This document shows, in pieces, positions 14,502-22,547 of a stretch of DNA of 64,000 bases. This stretch comes from Polaromonas sp. (GTDB taxonomy: Bacteria; Pseudomonadota; Gammaproteobacteria; Burkholderiales; Burkholderiaceae_C): the NCBI GenBank assembly GCA_030654695.1, contig JAURWY010000009.1:124001-188000 (forward strand). Reading direction: 5' to 3'. The notes below the pieces were generated by a model that searched no databases, was not told the DNA's origin, and saw nothing but the letters and a program-made list of their open reading frames with translations. How positions within the stretch are numbered: position 1 is the first letter of the stretch; the number at the start of each line of letters is the position of its first letter. A program made the translations under genes and the position numbers.

Positions 14502-14849
14502 GTGAGAAAAACGTTCAAACTTCAGGTCGAAGGCAAAAACCCGGACCGCGTGCTGGACGCCCACAAACACGAGATCCGCAAGTACGTCAAACGCCAACGC
14601 CGAGTGCCCTTGCCATCCGCTGTGGACTTTTGGGATTTCGACTGCAAATTCGGCAGCACGGAAGAATCAGCCGAAGTCGTGCATTTGGCTGAGATCATCA
14701 CACGCATCGACGCCGCTGTGGCCGAAGGCGCAGAGCAGTTCTTTGTTGAGGCTGTCGCCAAAGAAGGCCACCGCCGTACGCGGCCGGCCGGTGAGTCCAC
14801 CGCGCATCAAGACAATGGCTTCGACGAAGGTGACGACCTCACGCCCTGA
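14502..14849 (+). CDS. DUF6172 family protein
   Basis: 115-aa protein, RKTFKLQVEGKNPDRVLDAHKHEIRKYVKRQRRVPLPSAVDFWDFDCKFG..., which I recognise as the DUF6172 family. It is small, highly charged and cytoplasmic; the function is unknown. The ORF track starts at 14409, but conservation begins at the GTG at 14502, which has a TTAAGG Shine-Dalgarno site at good spacing. The last 11 bp overlap convergently the end of the 100-aa gene of the psd operon. Confidence 0.8.
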   Translation: MRKTFKLQVEGKNPDRVLDAHKHEIRKYVKRQRRVPLPSAVDFWDFDCKFGSTEESAEVVHLAEIITRIDAAVAEGAEQFFVEAVAKEGHRRTRPAGESTAHQDNGFDEGDDLTP

Positions 14850-15141
14850 TGTCAAATTCCGCTTCGCCCATGTAGCGATGCGGACCCAAGGCCGCCGTCA
14901 AAGCGGCCGATTCAGCGGCTTGCCACTGGTTGAAAATTTCCAGCTCTTCGTTGCTCAAAACATCGGCTGAAGGCGACTCGCCATACACAGCCACCAGTTT
15001 GCGGTACATCGAATACACCGGCAACACCAGCGACGCATCGCCTAAGGCTTCATTCAAGGCTGTGCAAAAACGCTTTTCTGCCGCGCGTTTTTCAAGCTCG
15101 CTGACATCTTCATAGGCAAACAAACGAACGCTGTAGCTCAT
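14839..15141 (-). CDS. Small conserved hypothetical protein, last gene of psd operon
   Basis: 100-aa cytoplasmic protein (MSYSVRLFAYEDVSELEKRAAEKRFCTALNEALGDASLVLPVYSMYRKLVAVYGES...). No signal peptide, membrane segment or known motif is seen. Its ATG overlaps the stop of the upstream lipoprotein gene as ATGA, so it is translationally coupled to the psd-MCE operon. It may be a helical accessory factor, but the family is unknown to me. Confidence 0.65.
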   Translation of the reverse strand: MSYSVRLFAYEDVSELEKRAAEKRFCTALNEALGDASLVLPVYSMYRKLVAVYGESPSADVLSNEELEIFNQWQAAESAALTAALGPHRYMGEAEFDIRA

Positions 15142-15818
15142 GGGGCGGCAACGTCCATGCGGCGGCGCAGGCGTTTTGCCTCGTCCATGTCACCCGCTTG
15201 CTCGGCACGCAAAGCCTGCACACCGAGCCAAGCCAGCAAGGGGCGACGCCAGCCTTGGGCCGACGCGGTCTCTACGGCTTGCGACATGGCGGCTGGACTG
15301 GCTTGCCCCGTGCGCATCAGCACACCCGCACCGACCAGCCGTGACAGCGGCTCGTCCATGGCCTGCATCACGCTGGCTTGTGCCGTGGGCGCAGCCGAGG
15401 CCAAGCGTTGCTGAGCAGCCGGCAACAGCGCAGCGCTCTGAGCTGTGACGCGGCCAGCCAAATAATCGGCATAGGCGAGGTCAGCCGCCGACGCATCGGC
15501 GCGCAGCAACTCAAAACCGGCACACGGTTCCAGCACCAAACTGGCGACGCGGGTGGCGCAGCGCAGCAGTTCAAGCCGGGCCAAGGCGTCTGGCCTGCCG
15601 GTGCTGGACAGTGCCTGCCGAGCCTTGTCGAACTCCAACGCCTCGACACGTGTGTTGCCCGTCAGATAAGCGCTGACAAAACGGTCGCTGGCGCTTTTGG
15701 CACTGAGTTGCCAATCCGGCACGGCTGGATGGCTGGCGCAGCCTGGTAATAACAACGCCGACAACAACAAACCCACAGCGGACGCAAGTGTAAAAAATCG
15801 AGAACGGAAAACAGTCAT
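15138..15818 (-). CDS. Lipoprotein of the psd-MCE operon
   Basis: 226-aa protein with a lipoprotein signal peptide; the lipobox LLPGC places the acylated Cys near residue 27. The mature domain is Ala/Leu-rich and helical, reminiscent of helix-turn-helix repeat (TPR-like) folds, with no recognised family. MCE transport operons commonly carry an auxiliary lipoprotein, and this gene occupies that place. It overlaps the MCE gene upstream by ATGA and the 100-aa gene downstream by ATGA. Confidence 0.7.
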   Translation of the reverse strand: MTVFRSRFFTLASAVGLLLSALLLPGCASHPAVPDWQLSAKSASDRFVSAYLTGNTRVEALEFDKARQALSSTGRPDALARLELLRCATRVASLVLEPCAGFELLRADASAADLAYADYLAGRVTAQSAALLPAAQQRLASAAPTAQASVMQAMDEPLSRLVGAGVLMRTGQASPAAMSQAVETASAQGWRRPLLAWLGVQALRAEQAGDMDEAKRLRRRMDVAAP

Positions 15819-16777
15819 GGCAACTTCACCTCAGTATCACGGGCAAACGGCCATTTACGATTGATCTCATTGACCAAGCTTTCGACCTTAATCAAACTGC
15901 TCTCCACTTCAGCGCGCAAGGTGCCGAGGTCGGCTGTGGCAACTCGGGCATTGGCACCCACCGCTTGGGCTTCGACCAGCACCGCATCAACCCGCTTCAG
16001 GCTGCCGCGGGCTTCGCCCAACAAGCCGTTGAGCTGAACAATGGTGGCGCGGGTTTCGGGCATCACGCCGCCGGGACCAAACACCTGTGTGTCGGCGCGC
16101 AAGGTCAACCCGTCCAGCCGCGCCAGCAAGGTGTTGGTGCGCTCCAGTGTCAGCAGTAATCTTTTGGCTTCCGCGTCATTGCCGAGCAACACACCGAGCG
16201 CGCCGGTCGGTCCTTTGAGTTTGTCAGTCAGCTGCTGCACATTGGCCAAACTGGCACCCAGAGCACCTTGGTTGCTGACCAGTGTTTGCACGCTCTCCAC
16301 CAGTTCGCGGGCGGCCGACATCAGGCGCGGAATATCGGCAGACGCGTCGCCTCGCAAGACCTCACGCACAGCACCATCGGGCAAGGGCGGGTCGGCCAAA
16401 ATGCCGCTGTAAGCGCGGATATTGGTGTTGCCCACCAAGCCCCGAACCAACGTGAAGACGCTCGACTGGCGCAACCAATGGGCTTGTTTCAGCGGCACAT
16501 CGACCAAGATGCGCGCCCTGCCATCAGGGGCCAGTTCGATGCGGCTCACGCGGCCAATCGCAAAGCCTGCAAAAGTCATGTCCATGCCGACCACCACGCC
16601 TTCAGAATCATCGCTGACCAGCACGAGTTTTTGGGTGGATTCAAACGCACCACGCGCATACAAGACGTAAACGGCAGAGCCCAGTACCAGCGCTAGCATG
16701 AAAGCCAGCAACAGCAAGGCCTTGAGCTCAAGGCGGCGTGCAGGCGGCACGGGTTCAGCGTCGCTCAAAGATGACAT
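15815..16777 (-). CDS. MCE-family lipid-transport protein (MlaD-like)
   Basis: 320-aa protein with one N-terminal membrane anchor (about 18-42) and a periplasmic MCE domain (about 45-125: DDSEGVVVGMDMTFAGFAIGRVSRIEL...). The long helical, coiled-coil-prone C-terminal region (about 140-310) is longer than in E. coli MlaD and closer to the extended MCE proteins that form tubes. MCE proteins form hexamers that shuttle lipids between membranes. It lies 28 bp downstream of the MlaE-like permease. No MlaF-like ATPase gene is in this operon. Confidence 0.88.
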   Translation of the reverse strand: MSSLSDAEPVPPARRLELKALLLLAFMLALVLGSAVYVLYARGAFESTQKLVLVSDDSEGVVVGMDMTFAGFAIGRVSRIELAPDGRARILVDVPLKQAHWLRQSSVFTLVRGLVGNTNIRAYSGILADPPLPDGAVREVLRGDASADIPRLMSAARELVESVQTLVSNQGALGASLANVQQLTDKLKGPTGALGVLLGNDAEAKRLLLTLERTNTLLARLDGLTLRADTQVFGPGGVMPETRATIVQLNGLLGEARGSLKRVDAVLVEAQAVGANARVATADLGTLRAEVESSLIKVESLVNEINRKWPFARDTEVKLP

Positions 16778-16805
16778 TCAGATCCTCTGGAAATCAACAC
16801 AAAAT

Positions 16806-17576
16806 TCAATAATAGTTGCCGACAAGTGAGACCACTTCGATCAGCAAGATGACCACAAACATGCGCGCCAGCGCGCGCAATTCAGCACCATGCCGGATGC
16901 CGCCTGGGGCTTCGTCCAACATGGCTGAGGCCATCGGCATCAGCGCCACGGCCAAGCTGAAAAACAGCGTCTTCAAGACAAAAATCAGCGTGACTGCCGG
17001 GGTGAACACCTGGCCAAAAAGTCGCGTGTAGGCGGGTAGTGCCGACACATTGAAACCATACACGGCCACATATGCCAACACCAGCGCGACCACACAACTC
17101 AGCGCCGCCAAGGTAACGCTGGCAAAGACACCGGCCACCACACGCGGCATGACTTCTTGCCGCAGCGGATCACGGCCTTGCGCGCTGATGGCCGCCAACT
17201 TGCCATGCCGGCGCATGTCGGACAGCTCAGCGCTGCTGGCCATGGTGGTGCGCAAAGCGACGAACAACGCCGCACTCAATGGAATCAGCTCCAGCACCAG
17301 CACCCGAATAATCACCTGCAGCGCGTATTGCGAAAGGCCATAACTCTGCGCCGTGACCACCACGATGCGCGTGATCACCAAGGTGATCAGCGCACTCAGC
17401 AGCGTGAACCAGACCAAAATTGGCGCGGTGCCTTGCACCATGTGGCGGGCCAGCAGCACGCGGTTGCTGGCCGAATAACTGGCCGGCGAAAAAGTCAGCA
17501 CCAAGATTTGGGCGCCGAAATACAGCACACGCCACCAACCGACAAACCAGTTGATGATGAGTGCCGCCGCCGTCAT
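16806..17576 (-). CDS. MlaE-like ABC permease
   Basis: 256-aa inner-membrane protein with about five or six hydrophobic helices. The central segment ELIPLSAALFVALRTTMASSAELSDMRRHGKLAAISAQGRDPLRQEVMPRVVA matches the MlaE permease signature (ExTPxxxALxxAxRxxxAxxAELxxM...DP...PR) but is divergent; for example, the usual second Gly of the coupling helix is replaced. Its ATG overlaps the psd stop (ATGA), tying its translation to phosphatidylethanolamine synthesis. It should pair with the MCE protein just downstream and a nucleotide-binding subunit that must be encoded elsewhere. Confidence 0.85.
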   Translation of the reverse strand: MTAAALIINWFVGWWRVLYFGAQILVLTFSPASYSASNRVLLARHMVQGTAPILVWFTLLSALITLVITRIVVVTAQSYGLSQYALQVIIRVLVLELIPLSAALFVALRTTMASSAELSDMRRHGKLAAISAQGRDPLRQEVMPRVVAGVFASVTLAALSCVVALVLAYVAVYGFNVSALPAYTRLFGQVFTPAVTLIFVLKTLFFSLAVALMPMASAMLDEAPGGIRHGAELRALARMFVVILLIEVVSLVGNYY

Positions 17577-18439
17577 GCGCTGACCTGCTCGCTGGCCGTA
17601 GCCATCACTTGGCCCAGCTGCACCGGTCCGCCAGCTTGCCAGTCAGGATTGAACTGCAAAGGCCCGGCCGGGAGCAGCAACACCACGGTGGAGCCGAGTA
17701 AAAACCGGCCCATTTCGTCGCCTTTTTTCAGCGTCACTGGCGGCGATGCGTCCGCGTAATGCCATTCGCGCACCGTGCTTTGACGCGAGCGGTTCACCAC
17801 GCCATGCCAGACTGTTGCCATGCTGCCGACAATCGTCGCACCCACCAAGGTCAAGACCATGGCCCCGTGTGGTGTGTCAAAAACACAGACCAAACGTTCG
17901 TTGCGGGCAAACAAACCCGGCACGCCGCGCGCGGTAACCGGATTCACAGAAAACAGATCGCCCGGCACATAAATCATGCGCAGCAAACGGCCATCACACG
18001 GCATGTGAATGCGGTGGTAATCACGCGGGCTCAAGTAGATCGTGGCAAAGCTGCCGCCTTTGAACTGCTCGGCCAGTTGCGCGTCGCCGCCGACCAGCGC
18101 GGTGGTCGAATAGTGATGCCCCTTGGCCTGAAAAATCTGATCATTCTCAATCCGGCCAAACTGGCTGATGGCGCCATCGACTGGACAAATCCAAGCGGCA
18201 CTGGCCAGTGGCCTTACGCCCGGTTTCAAAGCACGGGTGAAAAAGTCGTTGAACGAGAGGTAGCTGGTGATGTCTGAGTTAGCCGCCTCACTCATGTTGA
18301 CGGCGTACTTGCCAACGAACCAACGAATCAGCGCAGTGGTGACCCAGCCGCGCTGGCGCGACGCCACGAAGCCCGCGAAAGTCGTGATGGCTTGCTTGGG
18401 CAGGAGGTATTGAAGAAGAACTTTGAAACGATCAGGCAC
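17573..18439 (-). CDS. psd: Phosphatidylserine decarboxylase proenzyme
   Basis: 288-aa pyruvoyl enzyme that converts phosphatidylserine to phosphatidylethanolamine at the inner membrane. The self-cleavage site is the Ser in FLLGSTVV near the C-terminus, preceded by the family segments PVDGAISQFG, IYLSPRDYHRIHMPCDG and FARNERL. The length matches the Psd type I family. The start codon is GTG. It is the first gene of a tight operon with MlaE- and MlaD-like transport genes, linking synthesis of a phospholipid with its probable transport. Confidence 0.95.
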   Translation of the reverse strand: MPDRFKVLLQYLLPKQAITTFAGFVASRQRGWVTTALIRWFVGKYAVNMSEAANSDITSYLSFNDFFTRALKPGVRPLASAAWICPVDGAISQFGRIENDQIFQAKGHHYSTTALVGGDAQLAEQFKGGSFATIYLSPRDYHRIHMPCDGRLLRMIYVPGDLFSVNPVTARGVPGLFARNERLVCVFDTPHGAMVLTLVGATIVGSMATVWHGVVNRSRQSTVREWHYADASPPVTLKKGDEMGRFLLGSTVVLLLPAGPLQFNPDWQAGGPVQLGQVMATASEQVSA

Positions 18440-18493: not shown

Positions 18494-19675
18494 TCAGTTC
18501 GGCAGCACGCGCAACAGACGGCCTTGAGGGCTGTCGGTCAACACGTAAAGCCAGCCGTCCAGTCCTTGCCGCACATCGCGGACACGACCGACACCTTCGA
18601 GCAGCTTGTGCTCGCGCTGCACGCGGCCTTTGAAAGGTGCGTCAAGCTCGATCCGGTTCAGGTAGCCAAACTTCAAGGAACCGACAAAAAGATTGCCTCG
18701 CCAAGCCGCGCCATAACGGTCGCTGGTCAAGAAGGTCATGCCCGACGGCGCGATAGACGGCGTCCAGTGGTGCAAGGGCTGCTCCAAGCCAGCGCGCTCG
18801 TTAATGCCTGCACCGATTTTTCCACCCCCGTAATTGACGCCGTGCGTGATGACGGGCCAGCCGTAGTTGCGTCCCGCCTGCGGCAAGTTGATCTCGTCAC
18901 CGCCTTGCGCGCCATGCTCATGCGCCCACAAAGTGCCATCGGGTGCGAGCGTCGCGCCCTGCACGTTGCGGTGGCCCCAACTCCAGATTTCGGGCAAAGC
19001 GCCAGCGCGCTTCAGCAACGGGTTGTCGGCCGGCACCGAGCCGTCTTTGTTGATGCGAACGATCTTGCCAATGTGGTTGTCCAGCTTTTGCGCATCGTCC
19101 ATGCGTGAATAGCGGTCTCCCAAGGTCAAAAACAACGTGTCGTCGGGCTGACCGCTTTTCTGGCCTTCCACGATCCGGCAACCGAAGTGGGCGCCGCTAT
19201 CTACCTTGGGCTTTTGGCTGAAGATCACCTTGAGGTTTTGCAAGGCTGTGTTGTCAGCGCTCAGCGTCGCCCGGGCCAAGGCCGTGCTGTTGCCACGCCC
19301 GCCTGAGGCAGGTTCTGAAAAACAAAAGGACAGTGCACGCGTCTGTTCAAAGTCGGCATCCAGCAAGACGTCGAGCAAACCACCCTGCCCGCCTGCGGCA
19401 ATGGCCGGTAAGCCCGAAATCGGCGCACCGCGCTTGCCGTCGGGGCTGATCACGCGCATGCGGCCAGGGCGCTCCGTCACCAAGAAATGCTGGTTTGGTA
19501 AAAACGCCAGCGCCCACGGATTTTCCAAGCCGCTGGCCACCACCTCGGCACGCACGCTTTGGGCCGCTGCGGGAGTTGCGACAGCGAGCATTGAGGTCAT
19601 GAGCCCAAGCGCGCGCAAGGACCGAAGCCTTAAAATCCAAGAGCAACTCAACATTTTCGTAACCATCCAACGCAT
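18494..19675 (-). CDS. PQQ-dependent sugar dehydrogenase family protein
   Basis: 393-aa periplasmic six-bladed beta-propeller of the soluble aldose-sugar dehydrogenase (YliI/Asd) type, which oxidises sugars using pyrroloquinoline quinone. A signal peptide occupies about 1-38 (ending PAAAQS). The family landmarks VTERPGRMRVI, WSWGHRNVQGATLAPDGTLWAHEHGAQGGDEIN and NYGWPVITHG are present. The ATG at 19675 is preferred over 19705 because of an AAGGA site 7 nt upstream. No PQQ biosynthesis genes are in the window. Confidence 0.9.
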   Translation of the reverse strand: MRWMVTKMLSCSWILRLRSLRALGLMTSMLAVATPAAAQSVRAEVVASGLENPWALAFLPNQHFLVTERPGRMRVISPDGKRGAPISGLPAIAAGGQGGLLDVLLDADFEQTRALSFCFSEPASGGRGNSTALARATLSADNTALQNLKVIFSQKPKVDSGAHFGCRIVEGQKSGQPDDTLFLTLGDRYSRMDDAQKLDNHIGKIVRINKDGSVPADNPLLKRAGALPEIWSWGHRNVQGATLAPDGTLWAHEHGAQGGDEINLPQAGRNYGWPVITHGVNYGGGKIGAGINERAGLEQPLHHWTPSIAPSGMTFLTSDRYGAAWRGNLFVGSLKFGYLNRIELDAPFKGRVQREHKLLEGVGRVRDVRQGLDGWLYVLTDSPQGRLLRVLPN

Positions 19676-19807
19676 GGCAATTCCTTGAAAATTCAAACGA
19701 ATCAAAAGTTACTATGCCACGGTTATTTCCGCGGAGTTTGCCGAGGGGCAAGGTCTGAAGATCATTTTTGGCTTGACGCTGAGCCCTCTCGTCAGTAAGC
19801 TCCGTCG

Positions 19808-21332: not shown

Positions 21333-22547
21333 ATGGCCAAACAAATCATCATCGACCATGTCTTCAAAGTATTCGGCGACGAACCCGAAGCCGCACTTGA
21401 ACTCGTGCGCCAAGGCTGCAGCAAAGAAGACATCCTCGCCCGCACCGGCGCGACGATTGGCGTTTTTGACGCCAGTCTGACGATCGAGGCCGGCGAAATT
21501 TTTGTCGTCATGGGCCTATCGGGCTCGGGCAAATCGACACTGGTGCGCCTGCTCAACCTGCTGATTGAACCCACAGCCGGCCACATCCTGATCGATGGCG
21601 TGGACATCAGCCAACTGAAAGATTCGCAATTACGCACGCTGCGCCGCAAGGACATCAGCATGGTTTTCCAGTCGTTCGCGCTGATGCCGCACATGACGGT
21701 GCAGGACAACACCGCCCTCGGCTTAGAACTGGCCGGCGTGAACCGCGCCGAGCGCCATGCGGCAGCTGACCAAGCGCTGGACCAAGTCGGCCTGGCCGGC
21801 TGGGGCGCCAGCTACCCCGACGAGCTGTCGGGCGGCATGCAGCAGCGCGTGGGCCTGGCCCGGGCGCTGGCCTCGGACCCGTCGATCTTGCTGATGGACG
21901 AGGCGTTTTCAGCACTTGACCCCATCATTCGCACCGAAATGCAGTCCGAACTGCTGCGCCTGCAGCAGGTCAAGCGCCGCACCATCGTCTTCATCTCCCA
22001 CGACTTGGACGAGGCCATGCGGATTGGCGACCGCATCGCCATCATGAAGGATGGCCAGGTGGTGCAAGTGGGCACGCCCGACGAAATTTTGCGCAACCCG
22101 ACTGACGACTATGTGCGCAGCTTCACCCACGGCGTCGATGCAGCGGCGGTCTTCAAAGCCGGTGACATTGCGCGGAAAACCCAAGTCGTGGTGTCTGAGC
22201 AATCCAGCAAGGGCGCGCGGGCCGCGCTCAAGATGCTCGAAGACCAAGACCGCAACTACGCGTTTGTGGTCAGCCCACTAAAGCAGTACCTCGGTGTTGT
22301 GTCTGCCGAATCGCTGCGGTCAGCGCTCGACGGTCACGTCGGTCCGCTAGGGCTGGCGCCCGCGTTTTTGCCAGATGTGCAGCCGATTGCCGCCGACCAG
22401 CCCGTCAACGGCCTGTATGGCCAAGTGGCGCAGTGCCCTTACCCCGTGCCGGTGACGACCCCTGACGGGAAGTTTCAGGGCGCTATCAGCAAGACCACCC
22501 TGCTGAAGTTCCTTGACCGCGAGACCCCTGCCGTGCCTGCGCAGTGA
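21333..22547 (+). CDS. proV: Glycine betaine/proline ABC transporter ATPase
   Basis: 404-aa ATP-binding subunit of an osmoprotectant importer. Walker A is GLSGSGKST, the ABC signature is [15 protein letters not shown], Walker B is [13 protein letters not shown], and the switch His is in ISHDLDEA. After the ATPase domain (to about 270), a C-terminal CBS-like region (about 280-390) should sense ionic strength, as in ProV/OpuA. It heads proV-proW-proX with short gaps (10 and 52 bp). Confidence 0.96.

Follow-up and report, generated by a model that had tools for sequence, protein, structure and literature searches.

An MlaE-family permease operon without an ATPase in Polaromonas, and a truncated ATPase-like protein in related families

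Background

Can an MlaE-type permease serve an MCE system when no ATPase is encoded with it? The question is raised by an operon of Polaromonas sp. (assembly GCA_030654695.1, contig JAURWY010000009.1, positions 124,001 to 188,000; this whole stretch of 64,000 nucleotides is called the window), in which the genes for a phosphatidylserine decarboxylase (psd), a permease, an MCE protein, a lipoprotein and a protein of 100 amino acids follow each other, all on the minus strand. At stake are the routes by which phospholipids traverse the envelope, and whether ATP is required where an MCE system carries them. The initial annotation had described five genes with three ATGA junctions and no ATPase, and the operon was indeed found as it had been placed (Table 1). 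Judged from sequence, the best reading, and in our estimate a rather probable one, is that the permease is an MlaE-type lipid conduit that lost its coupling to ATP in steps.

The operon and its relatives

The permease belongs to the MlaE family (104.3 bits to PF02405, for which the curated cut-off is 22.5). It had been called divergent, which is apt since it scores far below the cut-offs of the NCBIfam MlaE models. A profile search of the PDB matched only MlaE/YrbE. The structure model is of low confidence (predicted local distance difference test, pLDDT, 58), but its 15 best Foldseek matches are all MlaE/YrbE (probability 0.97-1.00, TM-score about 0.34-0.50). The MCE protein passes the PF02470 cut-off of 25.1 only just (26.1 bits, 1.1e-5), and is conserved across the relatives. 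A Pfam scan of the operon content found no ATPase gene and no MlaF, MlaB, MlaC or MlaA; the closest gene for an ABC ATPase, on the plus strand at window 21333-22547, is part of a transporter of the glycine-betaine type. Another divergent MlaE-type permease, at 119 bits to PF02405, was seen outside this clade (L204; G170 C97 1609-2229; L, G and f numbers denote loci, genomes and families).

In the genome from which the window was taken, MlaE-type permeases and MlaD-type proteins number three each. One of the sets lies in a canonical mla operon with all its parts (MlaF, E, D, A, C and B; L007). A second is an Mpc-like operon (L008, C24) of a long STAS-type MlaE, an MlaF-type ATPase, an MCE protein with a long C-terminus and a PqiC-like lipoprotein, in which the PqiC-type match falls slightly short of the Pfam threshold. 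The STAS domain is deduced from the length of the permease; Pfam does not report one. The third set is that of the window and lacks an ATPase. When the whole genome was searched with MlaF, two MlaF-type ATPases scored 670 and 183 bits, and each has an MlaE of its own next to it; all that followed, at 131 bits and below, were generic ABC proteins. A free-standing MlaF was not among the matches.

Of the 151 family genomes, 70 contain a clear orthologue of the permease, and further orthologues occur in a dozen families elsewhere in the order; beyond the order, none was found in a phylum-wide sample at E 1e-14. About 5 kb of flank was fetched around each orthologue. Permease, MCE protein and lipoprotein (together: the trio) keep their gene order at 93 of the 97 loci that are free of the ATPase remnant described below, and they do so in many different neighbourhoods. 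The ratio of nonsynonymous to synonymous substitution rates (dN/dS) of the trio, measured against L040, is 0.04-0.08, and that of the permease to its nearest relatives is about 0.05, which indicates purifying selection. The trio is thus more than a chance association, as its order recurs and its constraint is strong.

At none of these 97 loci does a partner ATPase (MlaF) stand beside the trio, and none holds a complete ABC transporter, with a dedicated ATPase that has Walker A, signature and Walker B. The combination first noted in the window, an MlaE-like permease and an MlaD-like MCE protein without an ATPase, holds in its own genome and in the relatives; the case that would have spoken against it, an ATPase next to the trio or fused to it in close relatives, did not occur. 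The single same-strand ABC gene within 2 kb, at L172, encodes an unrelated NitT-type ATPase. Since it was not found beside the trio in L168 and L169, which are of the same genus, the idea of an ATPase hidden beside the trio in relatives was rejected.

A truncated ATPase in related families

In families f24, f30, f35, f44 and f48, and in one f11 genome, a gene of about 145-175 codons lies between the permease and mce genes and starts mostly inside the permease gene or right at its end. Of this gene, here called the remnant, 22 copies were found (E 4e-52 to 2e-63). Its profile, searched against the PDB (160 distinct sequences, best E 1.9e-9), found only ABC ATPases among the matches listed, and comparison with an MlaF alignment by hhalign gave 95.6%. 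Pfam ABC_tran was reached by 8 of 19 members at E up to 1, and the NCBIfam matches are ABC ATPases; neither Pfam nor NCBIfam has a model specific to the remnant.

The alignment begins at the Q-loop region (LPLRANLSVLENIAL vs ALFTDLSVFDNVAF) and extends across both the signature and the Walker B motif. There is no Walker A, the LSGG of the signature is replaced (e.g. by LDREERFVAK), the DEP of Walker B has become DRP or ERP (E to R) and the switch histidine is gone (DY.WN). By these comparisons the remnant is a homolog of the ABC ATPases that has lost the active-site motifs. It has invariant residues of its own (PLR.N, RD, RF..K, RP, L.D..YP and W....Y), which show that selection has maintained the truncated form.

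In G483 the remnant, mce and lipoprotein genes stand together as a block, with the permease gene about 6 kb away (L248 427-2785 and 8557-9474; L171). At the f44 loci L165 and L166, from the genus of G483, the block is not within the fetched flank, and the same separation of about 6 kb is assumed from G483. A match of the remnant profile at L083 was rejected, as it is an intact LolD-type ATPase.

The coupling helix and the question of a borrowed MlaF

In canonical MlaE the coupling helix between transmembrane helices 2 and 3 mediates the contact with MlaF (PMC7790496). The segment that corresponds to residues 110-147 of the E. coli protein was set against the remainder of the permease, and its conservation was ranked among 179 stretches of equal length. 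Pairwise identity in segment and core is 0.87 and 0.76 in canonical MlaE1, 0.62 and 0.48 in permeases with a remnant, and 0.33 and 0.50 in those without; the segment ranks 24th, 24th and 176th, respectively. Insertions or deletions within it are found in none of 21 canonical and none of 14 remnant-bearing permeases, and in 16 of 89 remnant-free ones. The remnant-bearing permeases retain [TA]E[VIM]ALM, then NE[LI]; of the 89 nonredundant remnant-free permeases, 85 lack the glutamate of the canonical EQL motif. Decay is strongest in the group of the window, and families f10, f11, f21 and part of f23 take an intermediate place. As far as the alignments tell, then, permeases of the window type do not have a conserved ATPase-binding coupling helix. 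Outside this segment the permease is conserved and its dN/dS is low, so that these can be taken as working genes.

The main rival to a loss of coupling is that the permease borrows a canonical MlaF (and MlaB) encoded elsewhere, as MceG is the documented shared ATPase of the mycobacterial Mce1 and Mce4 (PMC9947336). We hold this to be unlikely. It would leave the coupling helix as nearly the least conserved part of the permease, interrupted by insertions and deletions, although the MlaF that it would have to bind is conserved. The loss of the EQL glutamate speaks against it as well, and at the position of the ATPase gene the sister lineages have a dead ATPase-like protein, not an MlaF. Moreover, E. 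coli MlaF requires MlaB to stay with MlaE (PMC7367683). In favour of borrowing, the segment is partly kept in many remnant-free permeases, in which P144 and R145 are mostly conserved.

The MlaF of the Mpc-like operon (MlaF2) was a candidate for a dedicated partner. The Mpc-like operon and the trio occur together more often than expected: 47 genomes have both, and the odds ratio, without correction for kinship, is 6.2. But MlaF2 was not found in 23 of the 70 permease-bearing genomes, hence it is not required, and the candidate was rejected. The trio is also carried by G095 (L098/L247), an assembly rated 100% complete, in which the permease is the sole MlaE and no MlaF match was found. This is suggestive only as evidence against a borrowed MlaF.

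Several observations weigh against a stepwise loss of coupling. A strong MlaF match is present in 149 of the 151 genomes of the family, which leaves room for borrowing. G095 is a draft of about 250 contigs whose congeners have a canonical MlaE, and an assembly gap could account for the missing MlaF. The nearest ATPase relatives of the remnant are not specifically MlaF. Finally, presence of the remnant changed only about twice on the permease tree, the rooting of which with the long canonical branch is unsure; since there are only one or two events, the link between the remnant and the decay of the coupling helix is not open to a statistical test, and an independent-pairs test had too few changes to decide. 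Of the two options that the initial annotation had left, a shared MlaF and a system that works without ATP hydrolysis, the second is nevertheless favoured: the own genome has no free-standing MlaF, the helix has decayed and the sister lineages have a dead remnant.

A proposed stepwise loss of ATP coupling

The simplest account would start from an MCE-type ABC transporter as ancestor. In a first step its ATPase would have been reduced to a non-catalytic domain of 145-175 amino acids, which lost Walker A, the LSGGQ signature, the Walker B glutamate and the switch histidine and retained the Q-loop/helical region around the cleft for the coupling helix. In a second step the lineage of the window would have lost the remnant too, and the coupling helix, now without a partner, would have drifted. 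That within one order an ABC-type lipid transporter became an ATP-independent conduit by way of a preserved stage, a truncated and catalytically dead ATPase that in some families caps the permease to this day and in others has disappeared, with the coupling helix decaying afterwards, is a proposition to which we give about even chances.

In the resulting complex a permease dimer would carry phospholipid between the inner membrane and a hexamer of the MCE protein. The long C-terminal region of the latter would extend to the lipoprotein, presumably in the outer membrane. The lipid may move passively along its own gradient, or some other force may drive it. ATPase-free precedents exist among the MCE systems in PqiA and LetA (PMC12436622; PMC10897342), and BioY displays low-affinity uptake without the ATPase unit (PMC3246461).

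The lipid pocket offers a further view of the function. In E. coli MlaE the residues 70, 77, 78, 81 and 99 of the pocket are sites of photocross-linking to lipid (PMC7790496), and four of the five aligned positions are near-invariant in the clade, which suggests that lipid is handled. For this reason it seems improbable that the trio is a structural bridge, a tether or a lipid sensor instead of a transporter, even though the ATPase has been lost and an MCE protein with a long C-terminal region could, together with a lipoprotein, span the envelope.

Beside the pocket, position 70 of the window's permease is R in 87 of 95 remnant-free permeases and in 2 of 25 with a remnant, and L in 29 of 29 canonical MlaE. 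Arg91, Lys202 and Glu247 are conserved in the permease as well. Membrane charges gained by the clade, with Arg70 specific to the remnant-free permeases, could let the permease act as a secondary transporter that draws on the proton-motive force or on another membrane protein. We give this little chance, since neither a proton path nor a partner was identified, Lys202 is common to canonical MlaE, and the arginines may just bind lipid phosphate.

The MCE protein ends in a conserved C-terminus (NEINRKWPFARDTEVKLP in the alignment of relatives). By analogy with the proposals for PqiB-PqiC and MpcD-MpcA (PMC12436622; PMC10897342), this end could dock on the lipoprotein. The latter has no match in Pfam or NCBIfam; its AlphaFold2 model (pLDDT 65) is all helical, with weak TPR-type matches in Foldseek. 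Comparison with the PqiC-like lipoprotein of the same genome by hhalign gave 4.6%, and PF03886 was not matched. On these comparisons the lipoprotein is unrelated to PqiC and, with low confidence, might be TPR-like.

The psd gene and the other features of the operon

The initial annotation had further coupled the operon to psd, proposing that newly made phosphatidylethanolamine is moved outward. This found no support. The psd gene of the window, which scores 260 bits over the cut-off of TIGR00163, is the family-wide housekeeping copy: about 55 of 61 family genomes have an orthologue of 61-75% identity, which in most cases lies on a different contig from the permease gene or at a great distance from it. 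As head gene of the trio, psd is found only in the window, in the near-identical metagenome-assembled genomes (MAGs) at L040-L045 and in one Polaromonas MAG (L046); in G018 psd is a divergent neighbour of the trio. As psd is a housekeeping gene, mostly unlinked, that adjoins the trio in none but the closest relatives, a coupling of phosphatidylethanolamine synthesis and transport would at most be a local arrangement. A second psd-like gene in the own genome (L244 2384-3295, C29), 33% identical to that of the window, adjoins an apparent UDP-glucose dehydrogenase gene, and a similar copy occurs in about 14 other family genomes.

The genes overlap by 4 bp (ATGA) at psd/permease, MCE/lipoprotein and lipoprotein/100-amino-acid protein, and a gap of 28 bp separates the permease and MCE genes. 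The gene for the 100-amino-acid protein occurs at 9 other loci and is strongly conserved (dN/dS 0.025-0.066); at L051 and L058 it is present without psd. A glucose/sorbosone dehydrogenase gene (window 18494-19705) lies on the same strand 54 bp upstream of psd and may share its transcript; it adjoins psd in several relatives too. A search of the plasmid collection gave no match.

Table 1. Features of the operon, with positions in the window, and loci of the remnant.
Feature	Position	Strand	Basis or remark
psd, phosphatidylserine decarboxylase of the E. coli type	17573..18439	-	GTG start; PF02666 3.8e-62; TIGR00163
Permease, MlaE family, ATPase-less clade	16806..17576	-	PF02405 9.1e-30; orthologues in 70/151 family genomes
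Coupling-helix segment of the permease, degenerate, residues 108-145 (E. coli MlaE 110-147)	17142..17255	-	Alignment
Arg70 codon of the permease; arginine specific to the clade, next to the lipid pocket (= E. coli Leu72)	17367..17369	-	
MCE protein; one transmembrane helix, one MCE domain and a C-terminal region of about 190 residues	15815..16777	-	PF02470, alignment
MCE (MlaD) domain, residues 48-110 of the MCE protein	16448..16636	-	PF02470 match
Lipoprotein; predicted all-helical body (TPR-like?)	15138..15818	-	Lipobox LLLPGC
100-amino-acid protein, last gene of the operon	14839..15141	-	No Pfam family
Remnant loci			L173, L175, L178, L180, L183, L184, L187-L193, L195-L200, L162, L167, L174

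Comparison with known systems

In the literature, of which open-licence papers were covered and not exhaustively, neither an MlaE system that lacks an ATPase nor the remnant protein was found described. The operon shares with Mla (the phospholipid ABC transporter MlaFEDB-C-A, intact in the own genome) the MlaD-type MCE protein and a permease that probably has the MlaE fold. It differs in having no MlaF, MlaB, MlaC or MlaA, in its decayed coupling helix, in an MCE protein of 320 instead of 183 amino acids and in a lipoprotein of its own from a different family. Mpc of Brucella (MpcEFDA, a chimeric Mla-Pqi system for which a trans-envelope bridge was proposed; PMC12436622) also combines an MlaE-type permease, one MCE domain with a long C-terminal extension and an operonic lipoprotein. 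Mpc, however, has an intact MlaF-type ATPase, STAS on the permease and a PqiC-like lipoprotein, none of which is found in the system of the window.

The mycobacterial Mce1 and Mce4 are likewise permease operons without an ATPase of their own, but their MceG is free-standing and intact, whereas the genome studied here has no such ATPase and the coupling helix has decayed. Solitary BioY, of the energy-coupling factor (ECF) type, is likewise the membrane part of an importer of the ABC type and can function in the absence of the ATPase unit, although fold and substrate are unrelated. We know of no dead ATPase intermediate for BioY. If the reading proposed here is true, the MlaE pocket and an MCE bridge would be of use even when no ABC motor is present. 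A permease that lost its ATPase, with close relatives in which a dead remnant persists, would let the coupled state of a single fold be compared directly, in nature, with the uncoupled one.

PqiABC and LetAB resemble the trio as MCE systems with a membrane protein and without an ATPase, Pqi also with a lipoprotein. PqiA and LetA have another fold, and PqiB and LetB contain 3 or 7 MCE domains, compared with one here. The membrane protein of the window, unlike theirs, is an ABC-type MlaE permease (PF02405) that appears to have lost its ATPase, and it looks like a natural case in which a powered lipid pump became an unpowered or differently powered one.

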